Positions 4,804-25,621 of a stretch of DNA of 64,000 nucleotides are shown piece after piece. The translations under genes and the position numbers were made by a program. Positions within the stretch are counted from its first letter, which is position 1, and every line of letters starts with the position of its first letter. Source of the DNA: Fusobacterium massiliense (lineage in GTDB: Bacteria; Fusobacteriota; Fusobacteriia; Fusobacteriales; Fusobacteriaceae); NCBI RefSeq assembly GCF_900095705.1, contig NZ_LT608327.1:496001-560000 (forward strand). The letters run 5' to 3'. Under the pieces are notes generated by a model. The model saw only the letters and a list, made by a program, of their open reading frames with translations, had not been told where the DNA came from and did not search any database.

Positions 4804-4839
4804 TTTTATTAGCAAAGTATAAATTTAATATGAAAATTA

Positions 4840-4910
4840 GGCTCCGACGTCCGTATTACTCTGGAGAGCATTTCGGTGAGCTCGGAAGAGTCATACGGCT
4901 GTCAGGAGAC
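4840..4910 (+). repeat. Dispersed hairpin repeat, copy 1 (compensated variant)
   Basis: A member of a family of imperfect palindromes of about 74 bp. The typical left arm reads GTCTCTGACGTCCGTATTAG and the typical right arm ends CATACGGCTGTCAAGAGAC. This copy differs in both arms in matching ways: CTCC for CTCT on the left with GGAG for AGAG on the right, and ACTCT for AGTTC on the left with AGAGT for GAACT on the right. Pairing is therefore kept while sequence drifts. It is followed by the family's flank, CTGTAGGAAAGTATAAAATT. Confidence 0.85.
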
Positions 4911-4954
4911 TTTATTTATTCTGTAGGAAAGTATAAAATTAAATAGCAAAATTA

Positions 4955-5030
4955 GTCTCTGACGTCTGTATTATTTTGGGGAACTTGTATTTGTTAACTT
5001 CCTAGAATTTATACGACTAGGATATAAAGG
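4955..5030 (+). repeat. Dispersed hairpin repeat, copy 2 (degenerate)
   Basis: The left end GTCTCTGACGTC matches the family. The right arm (TTTATACGACTAGG) has decayed and pairs poorly. It lies in tandem behind copy 1, with the shared flank between them. Confidence 0.65.
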
Positions 5031-5106
5031 TAACTATTTTATCATCTAAAGTTATAATAAAAAATAAATATAATGCTCAATCAGATAAAAAATCTATAAT
5101 AAAAGT

Positions 5107-5135
5107 TTGACAAATAAAAATACATTTGTTATATT
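5107..5135 (+). promoter_or_regulatory. Sigma70-type promoter of the FadL-like gene
   Basis: TTGACA at 5107-5112 and TATATT at 5130-5135 are separated by 17 bases. The gene's AAGGAGG ribosome site follows about 30 bases later. Confidence 0.75.
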
Positions 5136-5177
5136 ATAACTGTTATTTTATATGTATGTATTCAAGGAGGAAATAAA

Positions 5178-6611
5178 ATGAAAAAACTTTTATTATTATT
5201 GTCAATAATTTCTACTGGAGCTTATGCAGCTTCAATAGACCATATACAAACTTATTCACCAGATTATTTGGCTAACCAGGCTCAAACTGGTATTACACAA
5301 GCGGGAGCAAATAATTATAACCCAGCAGGGACTACAAGATGGGATAAAGGGCAATATGTGCATGTTGGATTACAATTTGCTACTGGATATGAAAAAATGG
5401 AATATAAAGGAATTCAACACAAGGCTCAATTAAGACAAGCTATACCTAATGTAGCTTTAACATCTGTTGATGACAACGGAGCATACTTTTTTAACTTTGG
5501 TGGAATTGCCGGTGGTGGAAAATTAAAATATGATGGTGTTTCTGGGCTTGATGTTTTAGGAGACACAGATAAACTTGCTGGAGTTGGAGTTTATGATAAA
5601 GGTTCTGAAGTAAAAGGTTCTAACAAATATGAACAAATTACTTTAGGTAGAGCTTTTAAAGTTGATGATAAATTATCATTCTCTGTTGCTGGAAGAGTTG
5701 TTCATGGAACTAGAAATTTAAATGGAAACTTAAATGTTGGAATTAAACCTAGTCAAGAATATATGCAAAAGAAGGGTATGGAAATAGCTAAGGTTGTTGA
5801 TGCTAAAACTAAGGGACTAAATTTACCTAGTGAAAAAATAGTTGCCATGAAACAACAAGCAATTGATGCAGCTAAAAAGGAAACAGCCTATGCAGTTGTT
5901 AAAGGACTACAAGGTGAGCTTGATGCAAAAAGAGAAGCATGGGGATATGGTTTCCAATTAGGTGTAAACTATAAAGCCACTGATAAATTAAATTTAGCTG
6001 CTAGATATGATTCAAGAATAAAAATGGATTTCAAATCTAAAGGACATGAAAATAAATTACCTACTGAAAAACTTTTAGGAACTGATTTAGGTTTATCTAC
6101 TTTCTATCCACAATATACACCTGGAACAAGAACTAGAAGAGATTTACCTGCTATCTTATCAGTTGGTGCTTCTTATCAAGCTACAGATAATTACTTAGTA
6201 TCTTTTGCAGGAAATTACTATTTTAATCGTCATGCAAAAATGGATAGAGTACAAGCTTATGGTGGAAATGAACACGGTTATGATTATAAAAATGGTTGGG
6301 AACTTGCTTTAGGAAATGAATATAAAATTAATAATAAATTCACTGTACTTGGAAGTGTAAACTATGCCAGAACTGGAGCTAAATCTTCATCATATAATGA
6401 CACTGAATATGCTTTAAATTCTTATACTTTAGGAGCTGGAGTAAAATATAACTATGATGAAACATTAGCTGTTACAGCTTCAGTTGCTCATTTTATATAT
6501 GATAAAAAAGATGGAGCATTTACAGAAAAATTCAAAGGTGCTAATGTAGAAAATCAAAAATATAGAAAATCTATAACAGCTGTAGGTCTTTCTGTAACTA
6601 AAAAATTCTAA
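5178..6611 (+). CDS. OmpP1/FadL-family outer-membrane transport protein
   Basis: A predicted outer-membrane beta-barrel for hydrophobic compounds. The N-terminus is a signal peptide (MKKLLLLLSIISTGAYA, cleavage after AYA). Next comes a hatch-like segment rich in Gln, Asn and Ala ending in NNYNPAGTTRW, as FadL proteins have with their NPAG motif. The rest alternates short aromatic strands with Gly/Asn turns, and the last residue is Phe (VTKKF), the usual barrel-assembly signal. 477 residues is normal for the family. A helical, Lys-rich stretch near 190-255 is probably an extracellular or plug insertion. The start follows CAAGGAGG. A TetR gene lies just downstream on the same strand and could regulate it. 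The substrate is unknown. Confidence 0.75.
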   Translation: MKKLLLLLSIISTGAYAASIDHIQTYSPDYLANQAQTGITQAGANNYNPAGTTRWDKGQYVHVGLQFATGYEKMEYKGIQHKAQLRQAIPNVALTSVDDNGAYFFNFGGIAGGGKLKYDGVSGLDVLGDTDKLAGVGVYDKGSEVKGSNKYEQITLGRAFKVDDKLSFSVAGRVVHGTRNLNGNLNVGIKPSQEYMQKKGMEIAKVVDAKTKGLNLPSEKIVAMKQQAIDAAKKETAYAVVKGLQGELDAKREAWGYGFQLGVNYKATDKLNLAARYDSRIKMDFKSKGHENKLPTEKLLGTDLGLSTFYPQYTPGTRTRRDLPAILSVGASYQATDNYLVSFAGNYYFNRHAKMDRVQAYGGNEHGYDYKNGWELALGNEYKINNKFTVLGSVNYARTGAKSSSYNDTEYALNSYTLGAGVKYNYDETLAVTASVAHFIYDKKDGAFTEKFKGANVENQKYRKSITAVGLSVTKKF

Positions 6612-6641
6612 ATTATTTTTTATTTATTAAAGAAAGTATAA

Positions 6642-6715
6642 GTCTCTGATGTCCGTATTAGTTCGAAAAGCCTGTGCTCATTGAGCTCGTAGAACTCATA
6701 CGGCTATCAAGAGAC
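6642..6715 (+). repeat. Dispersed hairpin repeat, copy 3 (compensated GAT/ATC pair)
   Basis: A full-length family member directly behind the FadL-like gene. Its left arm has CTGATGTCCG where most copies have CTGACGTCCG, and its right arm has CGGCTATCAAG where most have CGGCTGTCAAG. One C-G pair has become T-A on both sides. Probably acts as a terminator hairpin, since TTTATTTATAA follows. Confidence 0.88.
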
Positions 6716-6781
6716 TTTATTTATAAAATTTTGTTAAAATAATATTAAGAATAAATTAGTTATAATTAATAGGAGAAATGT

Positions 6782-7348
6782 ATGCCAAAGAAAATTTTAT
6801 TTTCAAGAGAATTAATTATTGAAAAATCTTTTGAATTATTTAAAGAAGAAGGAATAGATGCAATAACTGCAAGGAATGTTGCTAAAATATTAGAGGCTTC
6901 TCCAGCACCAATATACAGTTCTATTGGTTCAATGGAAATTTTAAAAGATGAGTTAATAAAAAAATCTGAGAAATTATTTATGGAATACTTAACTAAAGAT
7001 AGAACAGGGATAAAATTTTTAGATATTGGTATGGGAATTGCAATTTTTGCAAGGGAAGAAAAAAAATTATTTTCAAAAGTTTTTTTGAGAGATAATATTG
7101 ACACATCTCTGCTAGATGGGTTTTTAAATTTAATTCAATCTGAAGTTTCTAAAGACAATAGATTTGCTTCTATCAATGAAGAAATGCAACAAGAATTATT
7201 AATTAGCTGTTGGGTTTTTGCTCATGGTTTATCAACTTTGATAGCCACAGGTTTTTTTAAAAATCCAACTGATGAATTTATTGAAAAAACTTTAAGAGAT
7301 AATCCAGCTAAACTATTTTACGAATATTTAGAAAAATATTCAAAGTAA
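6782..7348 (+). CDS. TetR/AcrR-family transcriptional regulator
   Basis: 188 residues with a TetR-like N-terminal DNA-binding domain. The helix-turn-helix is about residues 24-45 (ITARNVAKILEASPAPIYSSIG), followed by an all-helical ligand-binding domain with a partly hydrophobic core. The ribosome site AGGAG lies 7 bases before the ATG. It is codirectional with the FadL-like gene and separated from it by a hairpin repeat, so it may be partly on its own promoter. Control of the neighbouring outer-membrane protein is a reasonable guess but is not shown by the sequence. Confidence 0.85.
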   Translation: MPKKILFSRELIIEKSFELFKEEGIDAITARNVAKILEASPAPIYSSIGSMEILKDELIKKSEKLFMEYLTKDRTGIKFLDIGMGIAIFAREEKKLFSKVFLRDNIDTSLLDGFLNLIQSEVSKDNRFASINEEMQQELLISCWVFAHGLSTLIATGFFKNPTDEFIEKTLRDNPAKLFYEYLEKYSK

Positions 7349-7356
7349 AAAATAAA

Positions 7357-7390
7357 GCCTCTTGATAACTGACATCAGGAGACTTTTTTA
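7357..7390 (+). terminator. Mini-hairpin terminator behind tetR
   Basis: GCCTCTTGAT pairs with ATCAGGAGAC (one mismatch, one wobble), followed by six Ts. The arms resemble the outer ends of the dispersed repeat (CTCTTGACAG and GTCAAGAGAC), so it looks like an internally deleted repeat. The flank CTCTATAGGAAAGTATAAAA follows directly. Confidence 0.75.
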
Positions 7391-7428
7391 CTCTATAGGA
7401 AAGTATAAAATTTGAATAATAAAAGTTA

Positions 7429-7502
7429 GTCTCTGACGTCCGTATTAGTTCGAAGAGCCTATGTTTATTGAGCTCGTAGAACTCATACGGCTGTCAAGAG
7501 AC
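7429..7502 (+). repeat. Dispersed hairpin repeat, copy 4 (consensus-like)
   Basis: Left arm GTCTCTGACGTCCGTATTAG, right arm ACTCATACGGCTGTCAAGAG, loop region with GAGCC and GAGCTC. It lies between convergent tetR and sepF and ends 15 bases from the sepF stop, so it can serve as a two-way terminator. It is almost identical, with its left flank, to copy 5 at 33348 in the opposite orientation. Confidence 0.9.
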
Positions 7503-7517
7503 TTTATTTATTATCTT

Positions 7518-7856
7518 TTATCTTTTAAAAGGAAGTATTTCTTCTTCTTCATTTCCTTCTGAATATAATGAAGAAACTCTTGAGCTAGACACCTCAGTTT
7601 GAGTTTCATTCAAATATTGTTTTTCTCTTGGAATAGAACAGAATACTTTATTTCCAACATTTACTATCTCTGCTCTAGTAATAAAAATAGCTCCAGAAAT
7701 ATAGTCTAATACTCTTCTTGAATCTTTATCATCTAATTGACTTAAATTCATATTTACTATTTTATCTGCTTTAATATACTCAGCACATTTTACACAATCT
7801 TCAAATTTTGTAGGTTTTAAAAAAACTATTTCAACATTTTTTACATCTACTGACAT
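7518..7856 (-). CDS. sepF: SepF-like cell division protein
   Basis: SepF anchors FtsZ to the membrane and shapes the division septum. The 112 residues contain the SepF core: a VEIVFLKPTKFEDC strand-helix start, then VNMNLSQLDDKDSRRVLDYISGAIF and a final strand NKVFCSIP. A charged, disordered tail follows. The N-terminal amphipathic membrane helix seen in Bacillus SepF is short or absent (MSVDVKNVEI). The gene stands alone: upstream is a 66-base gap to rqcH, downstream a hairpin repeat. In this diderm the partner would be FtsZ, elsewhere in the genome. Confidence 0.85.
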   Translation of the reverse strand: MSVDVKNVEIVFLKPTKFEDCVKCAEYIKADKIVNMNLSQLDDKDSRRVLDYISGAIFITRAEIVNVGNKVFCSIPREKQYLNETQTEVSSSRVSSLYSEGNEEEEILPFKR

Positions 7857-12292: not shown

Positions 12293-12800
12293 TTTCATCA
12301 CCTATAATTATTATTATTTAAATTATTTATTTTTGCAATAGTAATTTTAATAATATTTACTCCTTATAAAATAAAAAAATTATATTTTCATAAATATATT
12401 ATCTACAAATTAATAAATTATTTTATTTAATTTTATCATATTATTATAGACATAACAAGTATATTTTTCAAAGTAATTTATTTTTTAATAGTAATTTCAG
12501 TTAAAAATTATTTTGAAAGTCAAAAATATTTTTTAATGATAGATATTAGAACAATATGGAAAAGTATGAGTATAAGAATATTATTTTTTTTTAATTCTTC
12601 CCAATATTTATTTGATACAGATTAATCTTGTACATACAATTTTTTATAGTTTCTAGCATACCTATCACCTCTTAGCTAAATTTGACATTAAATTAAGTTA
12701 AAAAAGAACGAGTTACTATATCTTATTTTTCAAGAAATGGTCTATGCTTTTTCACTTTCATAACTCATAATTAAGATCGATTTAAGAATAACTTTTTTAG
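12293..12800. other. Gene-free AT-rich spacer between the PASTA gene and the CRISPR trailer
   Basis: About 500 bases of low-complexity AT-rich sequence with stops in all frames. I see no convincing gene, RNA or strong hairpin. The right end grades into the first decayed CRISPR repeat. Confidence 0.6.
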
Positions 12801-14284
12801 AGAAATTTCAATATGGTTTTACATCAATTAAAGAAGATATAAATTTGAATACTAGCTCTTTAGAAAATTTAAATTCCAATATGGTTTTACATCAATTAGC
12901 TATTGCTTATGCTGAGGTATTAATTTCACAATTTTAAATTCCAATATGGTTTTACATCAATTGTTGAACAAAAAGTAGATTTCTCTCAATATGTTCCTGG
13001 TTTTAAATTCCAATATGGTTTTACATCAATTTTAGTAGTATTTGAAAATACAGAGCTTCAAGTGATTTTAAATTCCAATATGGTTTTACATAAATTAAAG
13101 CTATCAATGATGATGGAACACCACTAGATGAATTTAAATTCCAATATGGTTTTACATAAATCTCTATAAAAATGAAAATGCTTTAGTTGTAAGTGACATT
13201 TAAATTCCAATATGGTTTTACATAAATGAAATGATTAGAAAGAATACTTTAAAAGCAGTAGTATTTAAATTCCAATATGGTTTTACATAAATAAATTAGA
13301 AACAGAAGTTAGAAGAACTAAAGCAAATTTAAATTCCAATATGGTTTTACATAAATGTTCATTGATGCTTCTCCATACTTTATTTTAGTATCATTTAAAT
13401 TCCAATATGGTTTTACATAAATTGAAAACGTTCATGTGAAAATGAGAAGAAGAAAGACATTTAAATTCCAATATGGTTTTACATAAATAAAATTCCCTCT
13501 AAAAATAAGTCATCTTCATTGCTATTTAAATTCCAATATGGTTTTACATAAATAGAAGAGAACAGGTAAGAGAAGTTCTCTAAGAGGTACATTTAAATTC
13601 CAATATGGTTTTACATAAATAAAAATAATGAAGCTAAGGAGTTAGCGACTAATTTTAATTTAAATTCCAATATGGTTTTACATAAATCTGAAAAACCTAC
13701 CCAAACAATATCCCCAACTTTACGATTTAAATTCCAATATGGTTTTACATAAATAAAACTTCAAGAAACATATAAAGATTTATTTAATCCATTTAAATTC
13801 CAATATGGTTTTACATAAATCTTGTAGATAAGGATTGTTAATTAATCTCTGCGTACATTTAAATTCCAATATGGTTTTACATAAATTTGTCATCATCATG
13901 AAATTTTGCAATACTACCATTATTTAAATTCCAATATGGTTTTACATAAATAAAATAAAATTGAATTAATACAAGGTTTAAAAATAAATATTTAAATTCC
14001 AATATGGTTTTACATAAATAAGATTAATTATTTTTTATTTTCAAGGGGGGATTATTTATTTAAATTCCAATATGGTTTTACATAAATTCAAAAACTACAA
14101 AGCATTAGCTTATGCAAGTGATAATTTAAATTCCAATATGGTTTTACATAAATTTGATTGAAGAAGGAATAGAAGTTCAATTAAATCAATTTAAATTCCA
14201 ATATGGTTTTACATAAATTCTGTAGAGGCTGCAAGGATAATGAAAAGATTTTCAATTTAAATTCCAATATGGTTTTACATAAAT
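12801..14284 (-). CRISPR. Type I-B CRISPR array, 23 repeats and 22 spacers
   Basis: The 30-nt repeat on the plus strand begins ATTTAAATTCC, continues AATATGG and ends TTTTACATAAAT. Spacing is 64-69 bases, so spacers are 34-39 nt. Repeats at the left end differ: the first lacks several bases of the start, and repeats 1-4 end in ACATCAAT. From repeat 6 on they are uniform. Decay on the left and the cas operon plus leader on the right put the leader at the right, so crRNA is read on the minus strand. In that sense the repeat ends GGAATTTAAAT, giving an 8-nt handle ATTTAAAT as in clostridial I-B repeats. All spacers look distinct. I could not identify targets. Confidence 0.97.
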
Positions 14285-14395
14285 AGGCATATTAAAAACT
14301 CTTTAATATAAAATATCTTTTTTATAGTTTTTTGTCAATCTAAAACTAATAAAAAAAATTTAAAAAAATTAAAAAATCTTAATTTTTTAATTTTA
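14285..14395 (-). promoter_or_regulatory. CRISPR leader with promoter
   Basis: AT-rich 111 bases between the newest repeat and the cas1 remnant. On the minus strand TTGACA (complement of 14333-14338) and TATTTT (14310-14315) are 17 bases apart and point into the array, so pre-crRNA transcription looks possible. The part nearest cas1 may be leftover cas1 sequence. Confidence 0.65.
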
Positions 14396-14728
14396 TTAAA
14401 TCCATTTGTAAATAAAGACTTCTATCCTTTTTTCAGGATTGATATAATGTTCCACTTGTTTAACTAAAAGCTGTCCTGAAACATTCATTTCTCTTGGATA
14501 AAAACTTCCTGTATAAAAAGTATAGTAATTAAAAAAATGTATTGGGATACCAAATTGTGATATATAATTGATAAATTTAGTATTAAAATTCATTTCAGAC
14601 ATAATATAAAAATCATCAATCATTTCAATAGGGATATCTCTTTTTTCATCTTGTTCATTGATAAATGTTATCGTATTATCTTTTCTTTTTAAAGTTCCAT
14701 TAGTGTAAAGAAAATAACTTCTTTTCAT
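14396..14728 (-). pseudogene. cas1: cas1, N-terminal fragment (truncated)
   Basis: Cas1 is the integrase of CRISPR spacer acquisition and is normally about 330 residues. Here only 110 are encoded. They match the N-terminal domain of type I-B Cas1: RSYFLYTNGTLKRKDNTI, then QFGIPIHFFNYYTFYTGSFYPRE and LLVKQVEHYINPEKRIE. The last residues (VFIYKWI) leave the family pattern. A neighbouring frame reads TNGFNKIKK, which resembles the next Cas1 segment, so a frameshift plus a deletion seems to have removed the rest. The catalytic C-terminal domain and the whole of cas2 are missing, and the CRISPR leader follows at once. It cannot work as an integrase. Confidence 0.9.
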
Positions 14729-14740
14729 ATTTGTTCCCTC

Positions 14741-15234
14741 CTATACAAAGCATAAATCAAAATAAGCACATTTTTTACAAATACTCTTTTTCTCTAATAT
14801 AGGAGGGCTTTCTTTACCTAAAATTTCTTTAATTCCTATTATTATATTTTCTAAGTTTTCTTTGTCTTTATCAGTTAAATTAACTTCAACTGTTTGTTTT
14901 AATAATGGATAGTCTAAAATACCTTTTAACCCAACTAATCCCTTTTTTTCTAAGTAATACAAATAATATTGAACCTGTAGTATTGAAGCTGGTTCTATTG
15001 AACTACTTTTTTTATTTCATGTAATATTTTTTTTGAACGAATAAAATCAATATTTATAACCCCATCTATATTAATTTTTTTCTCATCTCTAGTATAACTA
15101 TTTTCTTCCAATAGTTTCCCTAAAATAACATTTGAGTTATTTTCTTCAAGTTGAATGTCATTGGTAAAATACCATAGTTTTCTTTTACATACTTCATAAT
15201 AATAAACCATCAATCCCGTTATATCCTTATCCAT
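14741..15234 (-). pseudogene. cas4: cas4, split by a one-base frameshift in an A7 tract
   Basis: Cas4 is a Fe-S exonuclease that trims and selects prespacers. The first part (79 codons) has the N-terminal Cys (YEVCKRKLWY), GKLLEENSYTRDEKK, and the nuclease strand HEIKK, then runs out of frame. The second part, in another frame, continues SIEPASILQVQYYLYYLEKKGLVGLKG and ends with the Fe-S cysteines CKKCAYFDLC. The junction is a run of seven As after ATGAAAT (about 15005-15015). One more A restores EIKKSSSIEPAS, the conserved Cas4 sequence. So it is either a slippage mutant or a gene rescued by transcriptional slippage. It lies between cas3 and the cas1 fragment. Confidence 0.88.
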
Positions 15235-15303: not shown

Positions 15304-17742
15304 TTAAATAAATTCATATGTTGGAAGCCCATCTTTGAAATCTTTTGCACTAAAGCCTAGTTCTTTATCATAGTTAGCTTCCATAATTGTTATTTTTTCA
15401 AATTTATTTATAGATTCAGATTTATATTTATTTGCATCAGCTTTTCCCTTTAAAATTTCTCCTATATATTTACTTAATTGATAATATTGAATTGAAAGAG
15501 TTTTCTTTAAAAGTTCAGTTTTAGCTTTCTGCCTTTCCTCTAAACCAAGATTTGTATCTTCAATTTTTTTTATAAGTCCCTTTATATTTTCTTCATTTTC
15601 TTCATAAATATTATATGGGATTACAGTAACACTTTGAATATCTCTAAGTTTTAAATCATCTTGTGAATTTTTATCACTATTTAAAATCATTTGATATTTA
15701 GCATAAGCTTTCTCAAATTCGTCAACAAAAGAGCTATCTTTTAAGTTTTCAAAACTTAAATTTTCTTCTATGAGTTTTATCTTATCTCCCTCATTAATTT
15801 GTTTAGAATAATTTTTAAATAATTCATTGTAGTCTTCAGAATTATCTAATTCGGTTTTAGATATAACTTTACAGTAATTTTCTAGACCTTTTTTTGAATT
15901 TTTATAAATATCTTTATCTATAAATCCATATTTTGAATCTTTTTCTTTCAAATATTTATCTTCAATTTTTAAATAAATAAAACAATTAGCTTTATCCACT
16001 GATTTTTTACCTTTACGGTTACATCTTCCAAATCTTTGGAATAGTGAATTTAAATCCTGTAGTTCTGTAAATAAATAATCAAAATCAATATCTAGTGAAG
16101 CTTCAACAAGTGAAGTTGATATCCAAATACCTTCTCCATTAAATTCAGTTTTTCCAAAATTTAAAATTTCTTGTTCTTTGCTTTCTCTATCCTCACGAAT
16201 AAAGTTTGAATGTAACATGTTAATTTTATTTTTTAAATCAACTTCTTCTTTTAATTTTAAATAAATTTCTTGAGCTTTTTTTATGGTATTACAGATAACT
16301 AAAATCTTATTTGATAATTTTTTTTCTTTTCTATTTTCTCTAAATTGCCATAAAATTTGCTCTATTCCAATTTCATCATCAATAAGTACTATATTATGTC
16401 TTATTTTTTGATTGTTAGTAAATTTCTTTTTTATAAAAAGAGCTTCTTCTGTAGTTTCTTCTGGCTTATCTAAATTTTTTATCACATTTTGATTATCTTT
16501 CATCAAGTATTTATTTAAAAAATACTCAATTATTGGTGGAAAAGTAGCTGTAACAATAGCAATTTTACCTCCCATTTCTATAATTTTAGTAATTCCAAAA
16601 ATTACAGCAGCCAGTAAATTTGCATCATACATTTGCATTTCATCTAAAATTATTTTTGAATAAGAAAGAGTAGCTAGTTTTGATTCATAACCTTTATATT
16701 TTAGAATAAAGTTAAATATTTGGTCTGGAGTACAAATAGTTACAGGTAGAGATAAATGTTTACCTCTTTTATTGTATTCTAAGATATCCATTTCCTTTTC
16801 ATCATTATCATCGATAACAAGCTCTTTTTTATTATTCAAATAATATTCAAGAGAATTTGAATGCAATAAACCTACTCTTTCTTCTTTATTTTCTCCTTTT
16901 ATTATAACTTCATTAAATCTCTTATACATTGCATTAATAGCTGTTCTAAGGGGAAGAACAAAGAATATCTTATTATTTCCTCCCCAAAGAAAGCCTCCTT
17001 CAGTTTTACCCATTCCTGTGTCTGCTATTGCAATTATATTTTTATGACTGTTTTCCTTACAAAATTTTTGCATATCATTCCAATCAGCTGATTTATCTTT
17101 TTCTTTAAATTCGTTCAACAAATTATTTAGAGCAGGTTCCAAAAAGTCATTTGGATATTCAATTTGATATCCACCACTAGCTGAATGGTCACATTTTATA
17201 AGTAAACCTAGTAATTTTATATTTTCTATTGTATTTAAATCTTGATAAGTTAAGTCAAGAGGGATAGAATCCTCATAAGTGATTATTTTCTTTGGTAAAT
17301 TGCTTTTTAATAATTTATCTAAATTTTGAAAAATTTTAAAATTTATAGTACTAATTGCATCCGAATACCTATGATGAAAAATAACTGAATAAAGAACAGA
17401 TAAATAATCATCTTCTGAAATAAAATCTTCAGAATTTATTAGAAAAGCTGAGATAATATTATGTTCTACTTCATTCTCCTTATCAAACTTTAAATATTTA
17501 GAGTCATATTTTTCACCATTAATTTTTTTTATATTTTCTTCTATTCTTTTTTGAAATTTAAAATTAATTTTTCCAACATCGTGATAATCAATGGCAGAAT
17601 TTAAAAGTAATATTTTCTTCTTATCATTAAGATATCCTAGATTTATTAAAATGTTTTTTTGCTTTTTTAAATCTAAATTATGTTCAAAAATATTTCTATC
17701 GGGTTTTGCTTTATATTTTTTTAAAAGTTCTTCACTCAGCAT
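15304..17742 (-). CDS. cas3: Cas3, HD nuclease-helicase, type I-B
   Basis: Cas3 is recruited by Cascade to nick and degrade target DNA. The 812 residues hold an N-terminal HD nuclease (His21, then YHDVGKIN with His54-Asp55, and VIFHHRYSDA near 121-129). The SF2 helicase follows: Walker A DTGMGKTE at 241-248, the DExH-type box LDEMQMY, motif III TATFPP, and motif VI QRFGRCNRKGK. All catalytic landmarks are present and length is normal. It is separated from cas5 by 75 bases that contain a strong hairpin, so its expression may be lower than that of the Cascade genes. Confidence 0.95.
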   Translation of the reverse strand: MLSEELLKKYKAKPDRNIFEHNLDLKKQKNILINLGYLNDKKKILLLNSAIDYHDVGKINFKFQKRIEENIKKINGEKYDSKYLKFDKENEVEHNIISAFLINSEDFISEDDYLSVLYSVIFHHRYSDAISTINFKIFQNLDKLLKSNLPKKIITYEDSIPLDLTYQDLNTIENIKLLGLLIKCDHSASGGYQIEYPNDFLEPALNNLLNEFKEKDKSADWNDMQKFCKENSHKNIIAIADTGMGKTEGGFLWGGNNKIFFVLPLRTAINAMYKRFNEVIIKGENKEERVGLLHSNSLEYYLNNKKELVIDDNDEKEMDILEYNKRGKHLSLPVTICTPDQIFNFILKYKGYESKLATLSYSKIILDEMQMYDANLLAAVIFGITKIIEMGGKIAIVTATFPPIIEYFLNKYLMKDNQNVIKNLDKPEETTEEALFIKKKFTNNQKIRHNIVLIDDEIGIEQILWQFRENRKEKKLSNKILVICNTIKKAQEIYLKLKEEVDLKNKINMLHSNFIREDRESKEQEILNFGKTEFNGEGIWISTSLVEASLDIDFDYLFTELQDLNSLFQRFGRCNRKGKKSVDKANCFIYLKIEDKYLKEKDSKYGFIDKDIYKNSKKGLENYCKVISKTELDNSEDYNELFKNYSKQINEGDKIKLIEENLSFENLKDSSFVDEFEKAYAKYQMILNSDKNSQDDLKLRDIQSVTVIPYNIYEENEENIKGLIKKIEDTNLGLEERQKAKTELLKKTLSIQYYQLSKYIGEILKGKADANKYKSESINKFEKITIMEANYDKELGFSAKDFKDGLPTYEFI

Positions 17743-17765
17743 TGGTGTCTCCTACATTAATAAAA

Positions 17766-17805
17766 ATATTTAGCTAGAAAATTTTAAAACTTTCTAGCTA
17801 AATAT
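17766..17805 (-). terminator. Long hairpin inside the cas operon, between cas5 and cas3
   Basis: ATATTTAGCTAGAAA (17766-17780) and TTTCTAGCTAAATAT (17791-17805) form a perfect 15-bp stem with a 10-base loop. Read on the minus strand it is followed by TTTTTATTA, so it can act as an intrinsic terminator or RNA-processing site between the Cascade genes and cas3. Confidence 0.75.
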
Positions 17806-17817
17806 ATAATTTTTTAA

Positions 17818-19813
<1,996 letters not shown>

Positions 19814-19825
19814 TTTTTCTCCTCC

Positions 19826-21370
19826 CTATTCTTGATCTCCATTTTCTTTATTTTTTTTACTTTCTAATCTATTTTGTTCTAATTCTAAGATAAAATAATG
19901 TATTATATCTTCATTTTGAGTTTGATTTTCTATATAATCAAAAGCAAAGCTAAAATATACTCCTGAGTATACTGATAATTGAGTTAAAACATCTAAAATC
20001 CTTTTATGATTTTTAGCAACAACTGAACTTAACAATTTTTGTCTGTATGATGCTAACTTATTTAAAGAATTATCTTTTATAAATCTTCTTACAACTTCAC
20101 TTGCACAAGCTTTTATAGAACTTTTTAGATTCTTATCCATTTCTTTTCCCCCATTTCTTATTATTCGATTTACTTTAATTAATTGATTAATAGCATAGTT
20201 GTATTTAAAAAGTTTTGTTAAATTTTCCCTAGTTACATCTATTTTTATAAAACTTTCTCTATCTTTTAATAAATATAAAATACTATTTGTTAATAAACTT
20301 AGATTTAAAATAGCAGAGAACACTTCATCAAGAAGATTAAAATAATATTTATCAGTAATTTTTATTCTGATATCCAATTTTGAAAAATCTTCAATCTCTT
20401 TTAATACTTTTATACTTTCATTTCTTAAATACCAAGTTTCAAAATATTCTTTATCCCTATTTTTATAAATTATTTCCATTCCATATTTGATATAGTCAAC
20501 TTTTTTTTGTAGGATATTTAAAAATAATTTTTTTAAAGGTACAGAATTTTGATTTCCTTCTGTTTCTTCATTTTTTTTCTCTTTAATTGCTTTTTCTTGT
20601 TTAAGACTTTTTAGTCTTTCTGTTTCATTCTCTTTTTCCTCAGAAAAATATTCTCTTAATTTATAATTCATATTTTCTAATATTTCTAAATCTAAATTAT
20701 CATTTAAAAATATAGTTTCAAAAGGACTTCCAGTAAAAGCAAATGGGATAAAATCAAATATTTCATCATCAAAGTAATCTACACTACTAGAAACAAAGTT
20801 ATAACCTGTTGCCTTAGACTTTCTATTAGGGTCAAAATAATAACCTTTGAGCCTACAAGGACTATTGTCTCCTTTTTCTAAAAGTCTACTTGTTTGACAA
20901 TAATTATCATATAAATCCTTTTTATTTCTAAAAGTTTCTTTTATAATTGAATGTCTATTTTCATCAAGTAACTTCAATACTTCATCTTTATTTGTTCCAT
21001 CAAATTTTGTTTTTGAAAATACTTTTTTTAAAACTGTGTTTGCTGACATATTTTCTTTTATGCTTTTTATAATTTCTGTGGTAAATTCTTTTGTATGCTT
21101 TAATTGATTTTCTAATTTTTTATGTGCCAATGCCTCTTCTGAGTAAAATCTTTCAATAAAATCTAAATAATTTTCTTCATTGATATCTTCTTTATTATAT
21201 AGTAAATAACTATCAGTAATTTCATCAATAATTACCTTTTTTATCTCATATTTCTTTTCTAATTCTTTAAAATAATAAATTAATCCTGTAATAGCTGCTG
21301 AATATTTCCAATCAGAAGCAGATATTGCAGTATCAAAACCATATTCATTCTTATCAATATCATACTTCAT
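19826..21370 (-). CDS. cas8b1: Cas8b1 (Cst1 family), Cascade large subunit, type I-B
   Basis: Cas8b recognises the PAM and opens target DNA. At 514 residues the size fits Cst1-type Cas8b. I recognise it from position (cas6-cas8-cas7-cas5-cas3) and from a Cst1-like segment near 200-220: a phenylalanine-rich stretch DFIPFAFTGSPFETIF. A Lys/Glu-rich linker near 245-275 is probably disordered. Cas8 proteins diverge fast, so motif support is thinner than for its neighbours. ATG 21370 (MKYDIDKNE) is preferred over upstream GTG codons because GGTGGTGAG lies about 9 bases before it. It overlaps the end of cas6 by 11 bases. Confidence 0.85.
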   Translation of the reverse strand: MKYDIDKNEYGFDTAISASDWKYSAAITGLIYYFKELEKKYEIKKVIIDEITDSYLLYNKEDINEENYLDFIERFYSEEALAHKKLENQLKHTKEFTTEIIKSIKENMSANTVLKKVFSKTKFDGTNKDEVLKLLDENRHSIIKETFRNKKDLYDNYCQTSRLLEKGDNSPCRLKGYYFDPNRKSKATGYNFVSSSVDYFDDEIFDFIPFAFTGSPFETIFLNDNLDLEILENMNYKLREYFSEEKENETERLKSLKQEKAIKEKKNEETEGNQNSVPLKKLFLNILQKKVDYIKYGMEIIYKNRDKEYFETWYLRNESIKVLKEIEDFSKLDIRIKITDKYYFNLLDEVFSAILNLSLLTNSILYLLKDRESFIKIDVTRENLTKLFKYNYAINQLIKVNRIIRNGGKEMDKNLKSSIKACASEVVRRFIKDNSLNKLASYRQKLLSSVVAKNHKRILDVLTQLSVYSGVYFSFAFDYIENQTQNEDIIHYFILELEQNRLESKKNKENGDQE

Positions 21371-22112
21371 CTTTGATCTCACCACCTAGATACTCTAAAA
21401 GTCCAAATCCTTGTGATAAACGACTACCCATACCTGTTCTATATATTTCTTCTAATAAAATTTTAGGAGCTTTTACTTTAAATCTTCCAGTTGTCACAGG
21501 AAACTTTAAATCAAAATGTTTAACAACTATTTTTCTTCCTTCTAATAGTTCACAACTAAAATCTTTAAAAATATCTTCAGGATATCCTAATCTTTTAAAC
21601 CTTTCTTTCATTAACCAATTTAAAACTTCTTCAAATCTTTTATTTCCCACTGAATAGTAGATATCTTTGTTTTCTTCTTTATTATGTTCTCTTACTACAA
21701 CTCCTCCACCTATTGTAGTTTGAAAAATAGCCTCCTCCCCTTTAATAATTTTTTCTTCAATTATTCTGACATCTTTTAAAATCATATGAGTATCTTTAGG
21801 TAAAGGAAATTTTTTATTTCTTTGTGATAAAAATACATTTACCAACAAGAAACCTATATTATTTTTTTCTGAACAAGATACTACAACTTTCATTTCAGGT
21901 CTTTTTAAATAAATTTCTTCTCCAAAATATTTATCCAAAGGAAAAATTACAGAAAATGAATAATCTTTTATTTGAGTTCCTGTAAAAAATTCTGGATAAT
22001 ATTTTGAATTATGTGCCTCTGTTAAAGACTTCTTAAAGAAACTTATAACAGTTCTTCTGATTTCTATTGGAAGTCTAACAGTACCTAATTCAAAATCTAA
22101 AATAAACCTCAT
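21360..22112 (-). CDS. cas6: Cas6, crRNA-processing endoribonuclease
   Basis: Cas6 cuts pre-crRNA within each repeat to leave the 8-nt 5' handle. The 250 residues form a tandem RAMP fold. The C-terminal glycine-rich loop that marks the family is clear: GMGSRLSQGFGLLEYL near residues 226-241. His34 (in SLTEAHN) is a candidate catalytic histidine; this assignment is tentative. AGGAGG precedes the start. It follows the AbiF-like gene by 27 bases on the same strand and overlaps cas8b, so it belongs to one transcript with both. Confidence 0.94.
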   Translation of the reverse strand: MRFILDFELGTVRLPIEIRRTVISFFKKSLTEAHNSKYYPEFFTGTQIKDYSFSVIFPLDKYFGEEIYLKRPEMKVVVSCSEKNNIGFLLVNVFLSQRNKKFPLPKDTHMILKDVRIIEEKIIKGEEAIFQTTIGGGVVVREHNKEENKDIYYSVGNKRFEEVLNWLMKERFKRLGYPEDIFKDFSCELLEGRKIVVKHFDLKFPVTTGRFKVKAPKILLEEIYRTGMGSRLSQGFGLLEYLGGEIKDEV

Positions 22113-22139
22113 TGCTCTCCTCCTTTTTATTTATTTTTA

Positions 22140-23039
22140 TTAACTTTTAATGTATTTTTTTAACAACTTATAATTTTTAATTCCATATATTTTAGCTACT
22201 TTATTTCTTTTAATTAATTGACACACTGTATGATATAGTGTTTTAAATTGATAATTAGGATTTATATTTTTTATAAAATAAATTATTATTAATATAGAAC
22301 TGAATATTCTATCATATCTGTTTAATATATTTGAAAAATCAGTATTCATTTTAGGAATAGTTCTCAATTTTAGATGAATGATAGACATATTATGAGCACA
22401 TAAATTTCTAACTAATTTTATATTGTTCACATAAGAAGTAAATTCATCAACTTTAAGATTATAAGTACGAGCAATAGATACCTTATTTTTTTGTGACATC
22501 ATCTCAAAAAGATATAATACTTCCCCAAAAGTTAATACTTCTGACAATCTCCAGATACTTAAATAAGTTTCAGTTGGATTATTTATAACAAAATCTTTAA
22601 TAATAGAATTATCTGAAAATAATTTCATTTTATTCTGAATTTTCTTTTTAAACTTTGATTCTTCATTTTGAATTTCTTGTTTGGGTCTAGTCCTATCACA
22701 CCAACTTGAAAAGTTTAAATAACCAAATGCTCCATATTTAACTCCTAAAAGATATGCAATTTTATTTTTTATTGACAATTCAATTTTTTCTGAACATTTT
22801 AAAAATTCCATTCTTAAATTTTTATCAAAATAAAAATTTTGAATTACTGCTTCAAAAGAAGTATTTTGTTTATAATTTCCACTATTGTCCATAAAAAATG
22901 TAGAAAACTGTTTAATTTTATAATAACTTATATGTTTTAATCTTTCAAGAGCTTTCTCCTTGTTTTTAACAAGCATTCCTCTACTTATAAATTTATTTAA
23001 TTGTTGCTCGTAACTTAAATGGATTTCACTACAGCTCAT
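22140..23039 (-). CDS. Abi_2 (AbiD/AbiF)-family protein with HEPN motif
   Basis: 299 residues with the Abi_2 layout: YEQQLNKFISRGMLV near the N-terminus, a helical core with ISYYKIKQFSTFF and FYFDKNLRMEFLKCSEKIELSIKNKIAYLL, and the HEPN signature R-N-L-C-A-H at 211-216 (Arg211, His216), expected to be the RNase site. AbiD/AbiF proteins stop phage by harming the infected cell. Published work describes AbiF as a toxin held by a small RNA and related to the ancestor of Cas13. A structured RNA candidate lies directly upstream. TGGAGG is the ribosome site. It is the first gene of the cas transcript. Toxin activity in this strain is inference. Confidence 0.88.
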   Translation of the reverse strand: MSCSEIHLSYEQQLNKFISRGMLVKNKEKALERLKHISYYKIKQFSTFFMDNSGNYKQNTSFEAVIQNFYFDKNLRMEFLKCSEKIELSIKNKIAYLLGVKYGAFGYLNFSSWCDRTRPKQEIQNEESKFKKKIQNKMKLFSDNSIIKDFVINNPTETYLSIWRLSEVLTFGEVLYLFEMMSQKNKVSIARTYNLKVDEFTSYVNNIKLVRNLCAHNMSIIHLKLRTIPKMNTDFSNILNRYDRIFSSILIIIYFIKNINPNYQFKTLYHTVCQLIKRNKVAKIYGIKNYKLLKKYIKS

Positions 23040-23051
23040 ATTAAAACCTCC

Positions 23052-23126
23052 ATAAAGAAAAAAACCCCTGCATCGGACGTATCCGTGTCATATTGACAAG
23101 CAGGGGTATTGATCTCTTATTTATGT
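23052..23126 (-). ncRNA. Structured small RNA ending in a terminator, upstream of the AbiF-like gene
   Basis: Read on the minus strand the RNA would start near 23126 and fold as a three-way junction. The outer stem pairs ACCCCTGC (complement of 23100-23107) with GCAGGGGT (23064-23071), 8 bp. Inside are two hairpins, TGTCA-ATA-TGACA and CGGA-TACG-TCCG. Seven Ts follow the outer stem at once, so the fold is also an intrinsic terminator. A promoter with exact spacing lies upstream. The product would be about 65-75 nt, with read-through giving the abi-cas mRNA. An antitoxin role is by analogy to AbiF systems. A plain attenuator is the alternative. Confidence 0.72.
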
Positions 23127-23132
23127 ACTTGT

Positions 23133-23161
23133 ATTTTAAACTATTTTATTTGCTTTGTCAA
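23133..23161 (-). promoter_or_regulatory. Promoter of the small RNA and abi-cas operon
   Basis: On the minus strand TTGACA (23156-23161) and TAAAAT (23133-23138) are separated by exactly 17 bases. It is the only strong promoter-like signal seen ahead of the abi-cas genes. Confidence 0.78.
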
Positions 23162-23496
23162 TTAGAATATTATTTTGAAATTATAAAAATCTAATTTTAT
23201 ATTAGTATTAAAAATCTTATTTTTATCCATTAGAAATAATTATATTTTAAATTATTATAATATATTTTATGTTAACATAACTTCTCTTTTTTTTCAAGTT
23301 TATATTTTAATTATTAATAAAAATTAATATTAAATAGAAACAAAGGTGCTTCTATAATCTAGATTTTTTTAATTTTTATTTGATTTTTTATTTTAATCAT
23401 AATAAAATATACAATGTATCTTCTAAATTAGAATTTAAATTTAGATATAATCTATTTTAAATATTTTTTTACGTTTTTCCAAATTGGAAGAAATCA
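23162..23496. other. Gene-free AT-rich spacer
   Basis: Low-complexity sequence between the divergent abi-cas promoter and the hairpin at 23497. No gene, repeat or RNA was recognised. Confidence 0.5.
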
Positions 23497-23551
23497 GCAA
23501 TTCATATTTACTTATTAAAAAAATAATAAGTAGAATATGAGTTGCTTTTTT
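23497..23551 (+). terminator. Long hairpin with T tract upstream of the hypothetical gene
   Basis: GCAATTCATATTTACTTATT and AATAAGTAGAATATGAGTTGC pair over about 20 bp with one bulge and one wobble, followed by seven Ts. TATAAT follows at 23563, so the hairpin sits where the next gene's promoter or leader lies. No plus-strand gene precedes it. Confidence 0.65.
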
Positions 23552-23595
23552 TATTATTATGTTATAATTGAATAAAAATGCTAGGTGATTAAATT

Positions 23596-24117
23596 ATGTT
23601 AAAAATTGAAAAAATAATACTTAAAAATAAAATTGTACATAAAGATAATTATTTTGAAATTGGTTATTGTGAAGAATTAAAAATTTATATGATACATATT
23701 TTTGTTTCTTGGATTGCTACTTATTATAGATATTACAAAATAGATGAAGAAGATTACAACTTATATAAAAATAATCCTCAATCATTCTATAAAAAATATG
23801 AAAATGAAATCAAACAAAATAATAATGCTTATACAGAAAACTTTATAGGCTCTTCAGCACTTAGAGATTATGATGGAGTTAAAGATTTTCAATATTCTTA
23901 TCCTACAAAAAATAGAATTATAAATCCATTTCAAAATTATGTTTATATAGAAGGTATTTTATTTGGAAGAATAATATGGGAGATAGGAGAATTTTTAATT
24001 CCACCATTTCAAAAAATTATTAGAAAAGATGGAAGTTATAAATTTCCATTGAGAGAAATTTGTGAACTAAAAAATGATAGTTCAGAAAATTCTTTATGCT
24101 ATTACTTTGCTTATTGA
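23596..24117 (+). CDS. Hypothetical protein, 173 aa
   Basis: I do not recognise this protein. The frame is complete, with AGGTG 8 bases before the ATG and TATAAT about 28 bases upstream. The 173 residues are rich in Tyr, Ile, Lys and Asn with no signal peptide. One moderately hydrophobic stretch (IYMIHIFVSWIATYY) and a C-terminal FPLREICEL region stand out. The composition matches host genes. It is an isolated plus-strand gene between the CRISPR-abi locus and an IS copy, the setting of many accessory or immunity-type genes, but nothing in the sequence shows a function. Confidence 0.6.
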   Translation: MLKIEKIILKNKIVHKDNYFEIGYCEELKIYMIHIFVSWIATYYRYYKIDEEDYNLYKNNPQSFYKKYENEIKQNNNAYTENFIGSSALRDYDGVKDFQYSYPTKNRIINPFQNYVYIEGILFGRIIWEIGEFLIPPFQKIIRKDGSYKFPLREICELKNDSSENSLCYYFAY

Positions 24118-24409: not shown

Positions 24410-25621
24410 ATGATTAAAGAAATGCTATCCATAGCAGATTTATCACAAATCTTAAATTTTATCAAGCCTTTTTTAACTCACAACCATTTGGAGTACATTA
24501 AAACCTCTATCAATAAGTTTATGCTTTGTCGCGATACTAAAGCTGGTTTCATTAAATATACTTGTACTGAGTGTGGGCATTATCATACTATTCCTATTAC
24601 CTGTAAATCTAGACTTTGTCCTTCTTGTGGATTTAAATATTCTGCTACTTGGACACAAAAGATGACTAATGATATTCTTAATGTTTCTCATAGACATATT
24701 CTTTTTACTATTCCTGAAGAGTTAAGACCTTTTTTCTTTTACGATAGAAACTTACTTTCTAAACTAGCTACTGCTGTCAATGAAACCATGGAATATCAAT
24801 TTCATAATCTCTACAAGAAAAATAATAGAAAAAATAACCTTCCTAAATCTTCTTCAGATTATTTCACTAACTCTGATATCCTTCACTATGGACTTATCAC
24901 TGTTATTCATACTTTTACTTTTGGTAGAGATTTAAAATGGAATCCTCATATTCATGCGCTTGTTTCTCTTGGCGGATTTACTAAAAATTTTACTTTTAAA
25001 AAATTAGACTACTTCCATGTACCTTCTATTGCTGGACAATGAAAGTATCATGTACTTGATATTGTTAAAAATGGTAATTATCCTAATCCTAAAATTAAAA
25101 ATTTAGCACTAAAAACTGTTTCTAAACTATATAAAGAAAACAAAAGATTTTTCTTTAATGTAGGCTCTTGTAATGTTAATTCTCCTAAAGGAATTATAAA
25201 ATATTTAGGAAAATATCTCGCTCGTGCACCTATTGCTGAATACAAAATTATCAATTACGACAATAAAAAAGTTACCTTTTTCTTTAATGATTTAGCTGAT
25301 AATAAAAAGAAAAAATATGTAACTATGGATATAGATAAATTTGTTCAACAAGTTCTTATTCATTTACCACCCAAAAATTTTAAGATGATTAATAGATTCG
25401 TTTTTTATGGGCGCAATATCACAACAAAGTTAAAAGATACAATTAAAAAGTACAAAAAAAGATTTTCTAAATCTGAATATTCTTTTTTTGTAAAACAATC
25501 TATTGAAACATTTGATGTACACCCTTTTATGTGTCCTCACTGTAAAATTATGATGGATAAACAAGAAATCTATGTAAGCGCTAATTGGTATGGTCGAACC
25601 ATACATAAAATTTATTTCTAA
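24410..25621 (+). pseudogene. IS91-family (Y2, HUH) transposase with in-frame TGA at codon 211
   Basis: The full frame is 403 codons, the usual IS91 length. The N-terminal zinc-binding domain shows CTECGHYHTIPITC and LCPSC. The HUH motif is in WNPHIHALVS, and the paired tyrosines are in YLGKYLARAPIA (Tyr-x3-Tyr). A second zinc-like pair, MCPHCK, lies near the end. Codon 211 is TGA in the context AGQ-TGA-KYHVL, where a tryptophan codon (TGG) would fit, and the frame continues cleanly to a stop at 25621. Copy 2 has the same TGA. As written it yields a 210-residue protein lacking the catalytic tyrosines. Confidence 0.88.

Follow-up and report, generated by a model that had tools for sequence, protein, structure and literature searches.

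A conserved three-way-junction RNA ahead of an AbiF-type HEPN gene in Fusobacterium massiliense, very probably its antitoxin, recurs in phages without the toxin gene

The closest described relatives of the locus reported here are the AbiF systems of Clostridioides difficile, in which AbiF is toxic when alone and a small RNA binds and neutralises the protein (PMC12373285); in phi027 this RNA, RCd22, neutralises AbiF both in cis and in trans, and its deletion raises abiF 17-fold (PMC12373285). Cas13 is thought to descend from the same AbiF family (PMC12737573; for Cas13an, PMC12165695). Phage-borne RNA mimics also have precedents in other defence systems: pseudo-ToxI of phiTE serves as a decoy of a type III antitoxin (PMC3475682), and the RNA anti-CRISPRs (Racrs) are phage mimics of CRISPR repeats (PMC10651486).

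We analysed a window of 64,000 nucleotides (the whole stretch of DNA presented above) in which a first-pass annotation had described a structured small RNA, with its own promoter, directly upstream of an AbiF-like HEPN gene (abi). The layout it had claimed, running from a promoter through a three-way-junction RNA with an 8-bp outer stem (P1) and two inner hairpins (P2 and P3) to seven Ts, TGGAGG and the abi start, holds in every element:

23156-23161, minus strand: -35 box TTGACA of the RNA promoter, read from the sequence
23133-23138, minus strand: -10 box TAAAAT, 17-nt spacer to the -35 box, read from the sequence
23058-23126, minus strand: small RNA of about 69 nt, from its expected start near 23126 to the T-run (fold, match to covariance model R1, covariation)
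23107-23100 with 23071-23064, minus strand: P1, outer stem of 8 bp, ACCCCUGC/GCAGGGGU, doubling as the terminator stem
23098-23094 with 23090-23086, minus strand: P2, inner hairpin UGUCA-AUA-UGACA (fold, stem tables, covariation)
23085-23074, minus strand: P3, inner hairpin CGGA-UACG-UCCG (fold, covariation)
23058-23064, minus strand: seven Ts ending the intrinsic terminator, read from the sequence
23047-23052, minus strand: ribosome binding site TGGAGG of abi, read from the sequence
22140-23039, minus strand: abi, AbiF-like HEPN ribonuclease of 299 aa, ATG at 23039 (Pfam, PADLOC and PDB matches)

The promoter matches the consensus at 11 of 12 positions and has the top score among the 29 promoter-like sites in the 1.75 kb scanned; the RNA start at 23126 is placed from promoter spacing, about 6 nt past the -10 box. 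The 5' part of the RNA (AUCAAU) is single-stranded, and its conserved core corresponds to 23058-23115. The RNA folds at -25.7 kcal/mol, where 200 dinucleotide shuffles average -11.4 and none does as well (z = -5.28). The P1/T7 terminator was missed by a terminator scan whose scanner models only single short-loop hairpins. Within the 64-kb window, the small RNA is the sole match of R1, at 68.4 bits.

Downstream of the RNA, the abi product matches Pfam PF07751 (Abi_2) over residues 33-220 (7.5e-42; 144.1 bits, cut-off 25.6) and the AbiF-RNA complex of PDB 8vz6 over 253 residues (3.3e-18), while PADLOC assigns it to AbiD. The HEPN R-x4-H motif is intact (R211-x4-H216, RNLCAH), and R211, N212, A215 and H216 are invariant in the alignment. 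By profile and catalytic motif, the protein is thus placed among the Abi_2 / AbiD-F HEPN proteins. Comparison with the F. vincentii orthologue gives a dN/dS of about 0.17 (dN 0.107, dS 0.625), indicating that abi is maintained by purifying selection.

The same RNA element lies upstream of the gene in Fusobacteriota AbiF relatives, and a search extended by AbiF protein (with the alignment as query) and by phage and plasmid records found it also in Staphylococcus, Streptococcus, Enterococcus, Lactobacillaceae, Veillonella, Peptostreptococcaceae, Tindallia and one Gastranaerophilales genome. Its consensus consists of G(A/U)CAA, a C-rich P1 strand, a variable P2, P3 (CAGAUACGUUCUGA), a G-rich P1 strand and a U-run, with P3 the hairpin of highest sequence conservation. 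Both inner hairpins, on whose conservation in related loci the first-pass annotation had staked its proposal, are retained. Across 28 homologues aligned by sequence, 90.6% of cells are paired (72.9% when shuffled) and the covariation score is 0.598 (0.255 when shuffled); double changes occur at 13 of 15 pairs, backing all three stems, and sliding the 3' partner by a single column drops pairing below 50%. The four core differences between the window RNA and that of F. vincentii are all accounted for by a compensatory pair in P1 and another in P3, and distant relatives of the Leptotrichia type keep the three-way layout with P2 and P3 of different lengths. In the MAFFT alignment of the first 13 RNAs, P2 was misaligned and RNAalifold returned P1 and P3 only; P2 was resolved by hand stem tables and the larger set. 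Conservation on this scale is well beyond chance.

R1 was also run on whole genomes without reference to protein, one genome per species and with E-values that are rough, covering 98 Fusobacteriota, 15 known-carrier genomes, 295 Lactobacillales, 291 genomes from the class of a Peptostreptococcaceae carrier, and the loci already collected. The resulting 66 distinct RNAs comprise 41 directly upstream of abi and 25 elsewhere, a ratio that should not be read as a frequency, since some members were found through the protein and others through the RNA. Of the 41 abi-linked RNAs, 37 have a promoter-like pair with a score of 9/12 or more, against 8 of the 25 others, and the median longest T-run is 7 against 4 (Mann-Whitney p = 4e-7 and 5e-4, respectively, indicative only given related sequences). 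The homologues share the order promoter, RNA, terminator, ribosome binding site, abi, and the proposal that a built-in terminator, here P1/T7, parts the RNA from the abi mRNA is supported. One near-threshold R1 match (genome G042), with neither promoter nor abi beside it, was treated as chance. Taken together, comparative evidence indicates that the RNA, as had been suggested from the single locus, is a genuine partner of AbiF, conserved widely across Fusobacteriota, Bacillota, Gastranaerophilales and prophages.

This RNA is distinct from the catalogued abiF RNA, a point the first-pass annotation had missed, along with the toxin-less phage copies described below. RF03085 is a single bulged hairpin, and it gives no match to the small-RNA locus at E up to 10, while in a positive control it matches RCd22 of Clostridioides phage CD2301 twice (26.6 and 19.5 bits); identity with RF03085 is thus rejected. 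None of the AbiF-associated RNAs gathered here reaches any Rfam gathering score. Other Fusobacteriota AbiF subfamilies have a different RNA at this place, among them the one we term class C (CACACCUCU..UGUGNCCCA). The window RNA would accordingly represent a widespread antitoxin architecture uncatalogued in Rfam, a class that the Cell 2025 AbiF paper or preprints may already show.

The order of the elements and the conservation of RNA structure by compensatory change are those of AbiF-RNA (type-III-like) modules, and we favour, with a probability of roughly 0.85, the reading that the locus is a type-III-like toxin-antitoxin (abortive infection) module whose RNA plays two parts, stopping the bulk of transcription ahead of abi and acting in trans as an inhibitor of the HEPN RNase. 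The promoter at 23161-23133 would make mostly the RNA of about 69 nt, stopping at its own P1/T7 terminator, and minority read-through would supply abi mRNA; the excess three-way-junction RNA would bind and inhibit the AbiF HEPN ribonuclease in trans, until infection or stress, by lowering the RNA or its synthesis, freed the toxin and stopped growth. That the small RNA neutralises AbiF is very probable. Binding, toxicity, neutralisation and the trigger are here extrapolated from C. difficile AbiF/RCd22 and from the AbiF-RNA structure, and since the fold differs from the single bulged hairpins of RCd22, the mode of inhibition may differ as well.

The first-pass annotation had further suggested, because cas genes follow abi, that the same element may set cas expression. 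The relevant features are:

22133-23176, minus strand: mobile cassette of promoter, RNA and abi (delimited by DNA identity to F. vincentii SB055 and by the limits of cas6-leader homology)
21360-22112, minus strand: cas6b, 27 bp past the abi stop, with no terminator found in between
15304-21385, minus strand: type I-B interference genes cas8 (Csx8), cas7, cas5 and cas3, intact, forming context outside the cassette

A conserved cas linkage can be rejected. Abi stands in front of cas6 in 0 of 12 other genomes with a Csx8 cas operon, the operon there starting at cas6, and the window's cas operon was found in none of the other AbiF neighbourhoods retrieved (20 in Fusobacteriota, that of F. vincentii and 22 wider ones), which gave one weak cas3-helicase match (L083) in a test that was queried with the window's Cas proteins and that unrelated CRISPR types could escape. 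A standalone counterpart of the cassette in F. vincentii SB055 has 83.6% DNA identity to it, its match covering 23176-22133 exactly, while the cas6 leaders of other species show homology from 22134-22162 onwards, so cassette and operon were joined at the cas6 ribosome site. With the pairing present in one genome only, the link is recent or species-specific, and any control of cas would be at most a local by-product of the landing site. What survives of the suggestion is such a local coupling, in which cas expression in this species would now depend on the RNA terminator and on read-through past it, a reading we regard as tentative. In its favour, the 27-bp gap holds no detected terminator, unlike in F. 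gastrosuis and one further relative, where abi is followed by one, and the homology of other cas6 leaders reaches only to the cas6 ribosome site; against it stand the single occurrence and AT-rich promoter-like sites inside abi, from which cas6 may have its own promoter. Co-transcription of abi and cas6 is plausible in this species, and cas expression through the cassette possible.

Several other features of the window surround these genes. The CRISPR array lies at 12793-14309 (repeat ATTTAAATTCCAATATGGTTTTACATAAAT), with repeat sequences that are degenerate towards 12793 and, filling the first part, a repeat variant ending ATCAAT. The adaptation module (14396-15234) is broken, with cas4 split by a frameshift and cas1 shortened to 110 aa; there was no sign of a cas2 ORF, this genome has no other cas1, and with the interference genes apparently intact the spacer set is probably frozen. 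Upstream of the cassette are a broken IS91-type transposase (24410-25621; Zn_Tnp_IS91, Y2_Tnp), a possible route of gene movement, and a long AT-rich inverted repeat (23500-23560, GCAACTCATATTCTACTTATTA..TAATAAGTAAATATGAATTGC) between the cassette and a divergent ORF (23596-24117) without a Pfam match. Four imperfect palindromic repeat copies of about 90 nt (AGTCTCTGACGTCCGTATTAGTTCGAAGAGC...AAGAGACT) are spread over 4830-7519 at spacings of 115 to 1687.

Among the RNAs that lack an adjacent abi, three outside phages (in genomes G037, G071 and G084) are leftovers, with RNA, promoter and terminator intact and abi decayed to fragments, as expected if losing the RNA before the toxin is harmful. 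The G037 copy (L134:3028-3088) lies away from that genome's cas operon, one of the two most similar to the window's, with a decayed abi start behind it. Leftovers aside, most of the remaining toxin-less RNAs are located in phages, as judged from the genes around them. In Lactobacillales prophages the RNA is flanked by an ArpU/RinA-type late regulator on one side and the terminase genes on the other; a Fusobacteriaceae prophage has it immediately ahead of the scaffold and major head genes, and Listeria phage PSA has one copy (51.7 bits) directly after a tRNA-like element; the 16 IMG/VR contigs in which the RNA was found by pattern showed no abi within the stretch fetched. For class C, an exact 24-nt core occurs in 16 viral contigs, with AbiF following in 2, none following in 13, and a further contig ending after the RNA with T-run and RBS in place. 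The abi-linked form, GCGGGGACGTTTTTTTT, and the phage form, GCGGGGACGTACATATT, differ exactly where expected. Two prophages contain both types, a class A RNA like that of the window and a class C RNA, arranged in tandem. The class C match in Lactobacillus phages P1 and Lenus ends on the base directly preceding an annotated tRNA-Gly gene, which suggests that the RNA may be matured at its 3' end by RNase P. The P1 copy (L189:2980-3030) adjoins its tRNA-Gly gene between terminase genes, and toxin-less phage copies of the window's RNA family (L185:3248-3304, L182-L184, L209-L224) are clustered with tRNA-like and further structured RNAs, which may target other defences.

These copies, lacking a toxin and mostly also a promoter and T-run, are probably useful in trans despite having no adjacent toxin. 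Their best reading is as decoy (anti-AbiF) RNAs that would neutralise AbiF, and we lean towards the view that Lactobacillales, Listeria and other phages hold standing sets of AbiF-neutralising RNAs on tRNA-flanked late transcripts that supply no promoter or terminator of their own. They could instead be remnants of decayed AbiF modules, as the three leftovers outside phages clearly are. We consider this unlikely for the phage copies: most lack promoter and T-run, keep a good fold, occupy a single position from late regulator to terminase, are in some cases accompanied by a second class of AbiF RNA, and adjoin tRNA or tRNA-like elements. Within the literature searched, a scope that leaves the Cell 2025 AbiF paper and preprints outside, we found no report of phage RNA decoys against AbiF.

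The phage copies also bear on whether the structure is only a cis-acting leader for abi, and perhaps cas (an attenuator or riboswitch-like terminator), with no antitoxin action on the protein. Where the RNA is linked to abi, P1 and T7 do form a good terminator, placed after the promoter and ahead of the gene, but a terminator needs no conserved P2, P3, 5' CAA or P3 loop AUACGU, and phages keep the RNA without a toxin gene, mostly without promoter or T-run, making a purely cis-acting role decidedly improbable. Least credible of all is a CRISPR-guarding module of the CreTA/CreR kind, with a crRNA-like RNA needing Cas6/Cascade and toxin control tied to cas: the cassette adjoins cas6 and AbiF and cas6 are probably co-transcribed, but the RNA agrees with the CRISPR repeat at 14 of 30 positions at best, the top-scoring upstream repeat-like site (20/30) is within the shuffle range (mean 19.3), so that a repeat-like RNA is rejected, and the RNA-abi pair occurs without the window's cas operon in every other neighbourhood retrieved while the 12 relatives with that operon lack the pair.

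The antitoxin reading has practical consequences. The covariation captured by R1 is good enough for an Rfam entry, and RNA-protein specificity in AbiF becomes a comparative problem. The phage copies would be ready-made natural inhibitors. If they do block AbiF, they would account for the ability of phages to get past a common defence and reveal which features of the RNA are enough for inhibition; this would be an RNA-based anti-abortive-infection strategy, recognisable by the window's RNA family recurring without its toxin.

Compared with described systems, the locus is closest to AbiF/RCd22 (PMC12373285), with which it shares the order of SigA promoter, small RNA, terminator, RBS and Abi_2 gene and an mRNA arising by read-through. 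In RCd22, however, a single bulged hairpin (RF03085) occurs twice and the terminator is separate, whereas here a single three-way junction uses P1 as the terminator stem, and the C. difficile phage AbiF proteins are about 29% identical to that of the window. The likeness to the AbiF-AbiFr complex (PDB 8vz6) rests on the protein, a member of the same family of HEPN RNases with an RNA partner. With ToxIN and other classical type III systems the locus would have in common a toxic RNase held by excess RNA made upstream of a terminator, but it has a HEPN rather than a ToxN fold, no tandem repeats, and a three-way junction in place of a pseudoknot. CreTA/CreR (reviewed in PMC12737573) likewise places a toxin and a small RNA next to a cas operon of type I-B; here there is no repeat-like RNA and no visible Cas dependence, and the association is not conserved. 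Toxin-less antitoxin-RNA copies in phage genomes, as with pseudo-ToxI, are found for the RNA family and not within the window. Like pseudo-ToxI and the Racrs, these are phage-borne RNAs mimicking a defence system's own RNA, but their target would be AbiF, and they belong to the standing make-up of both temperate and lytic phages, where they lie next to tRNAs or tRNA-like elements.
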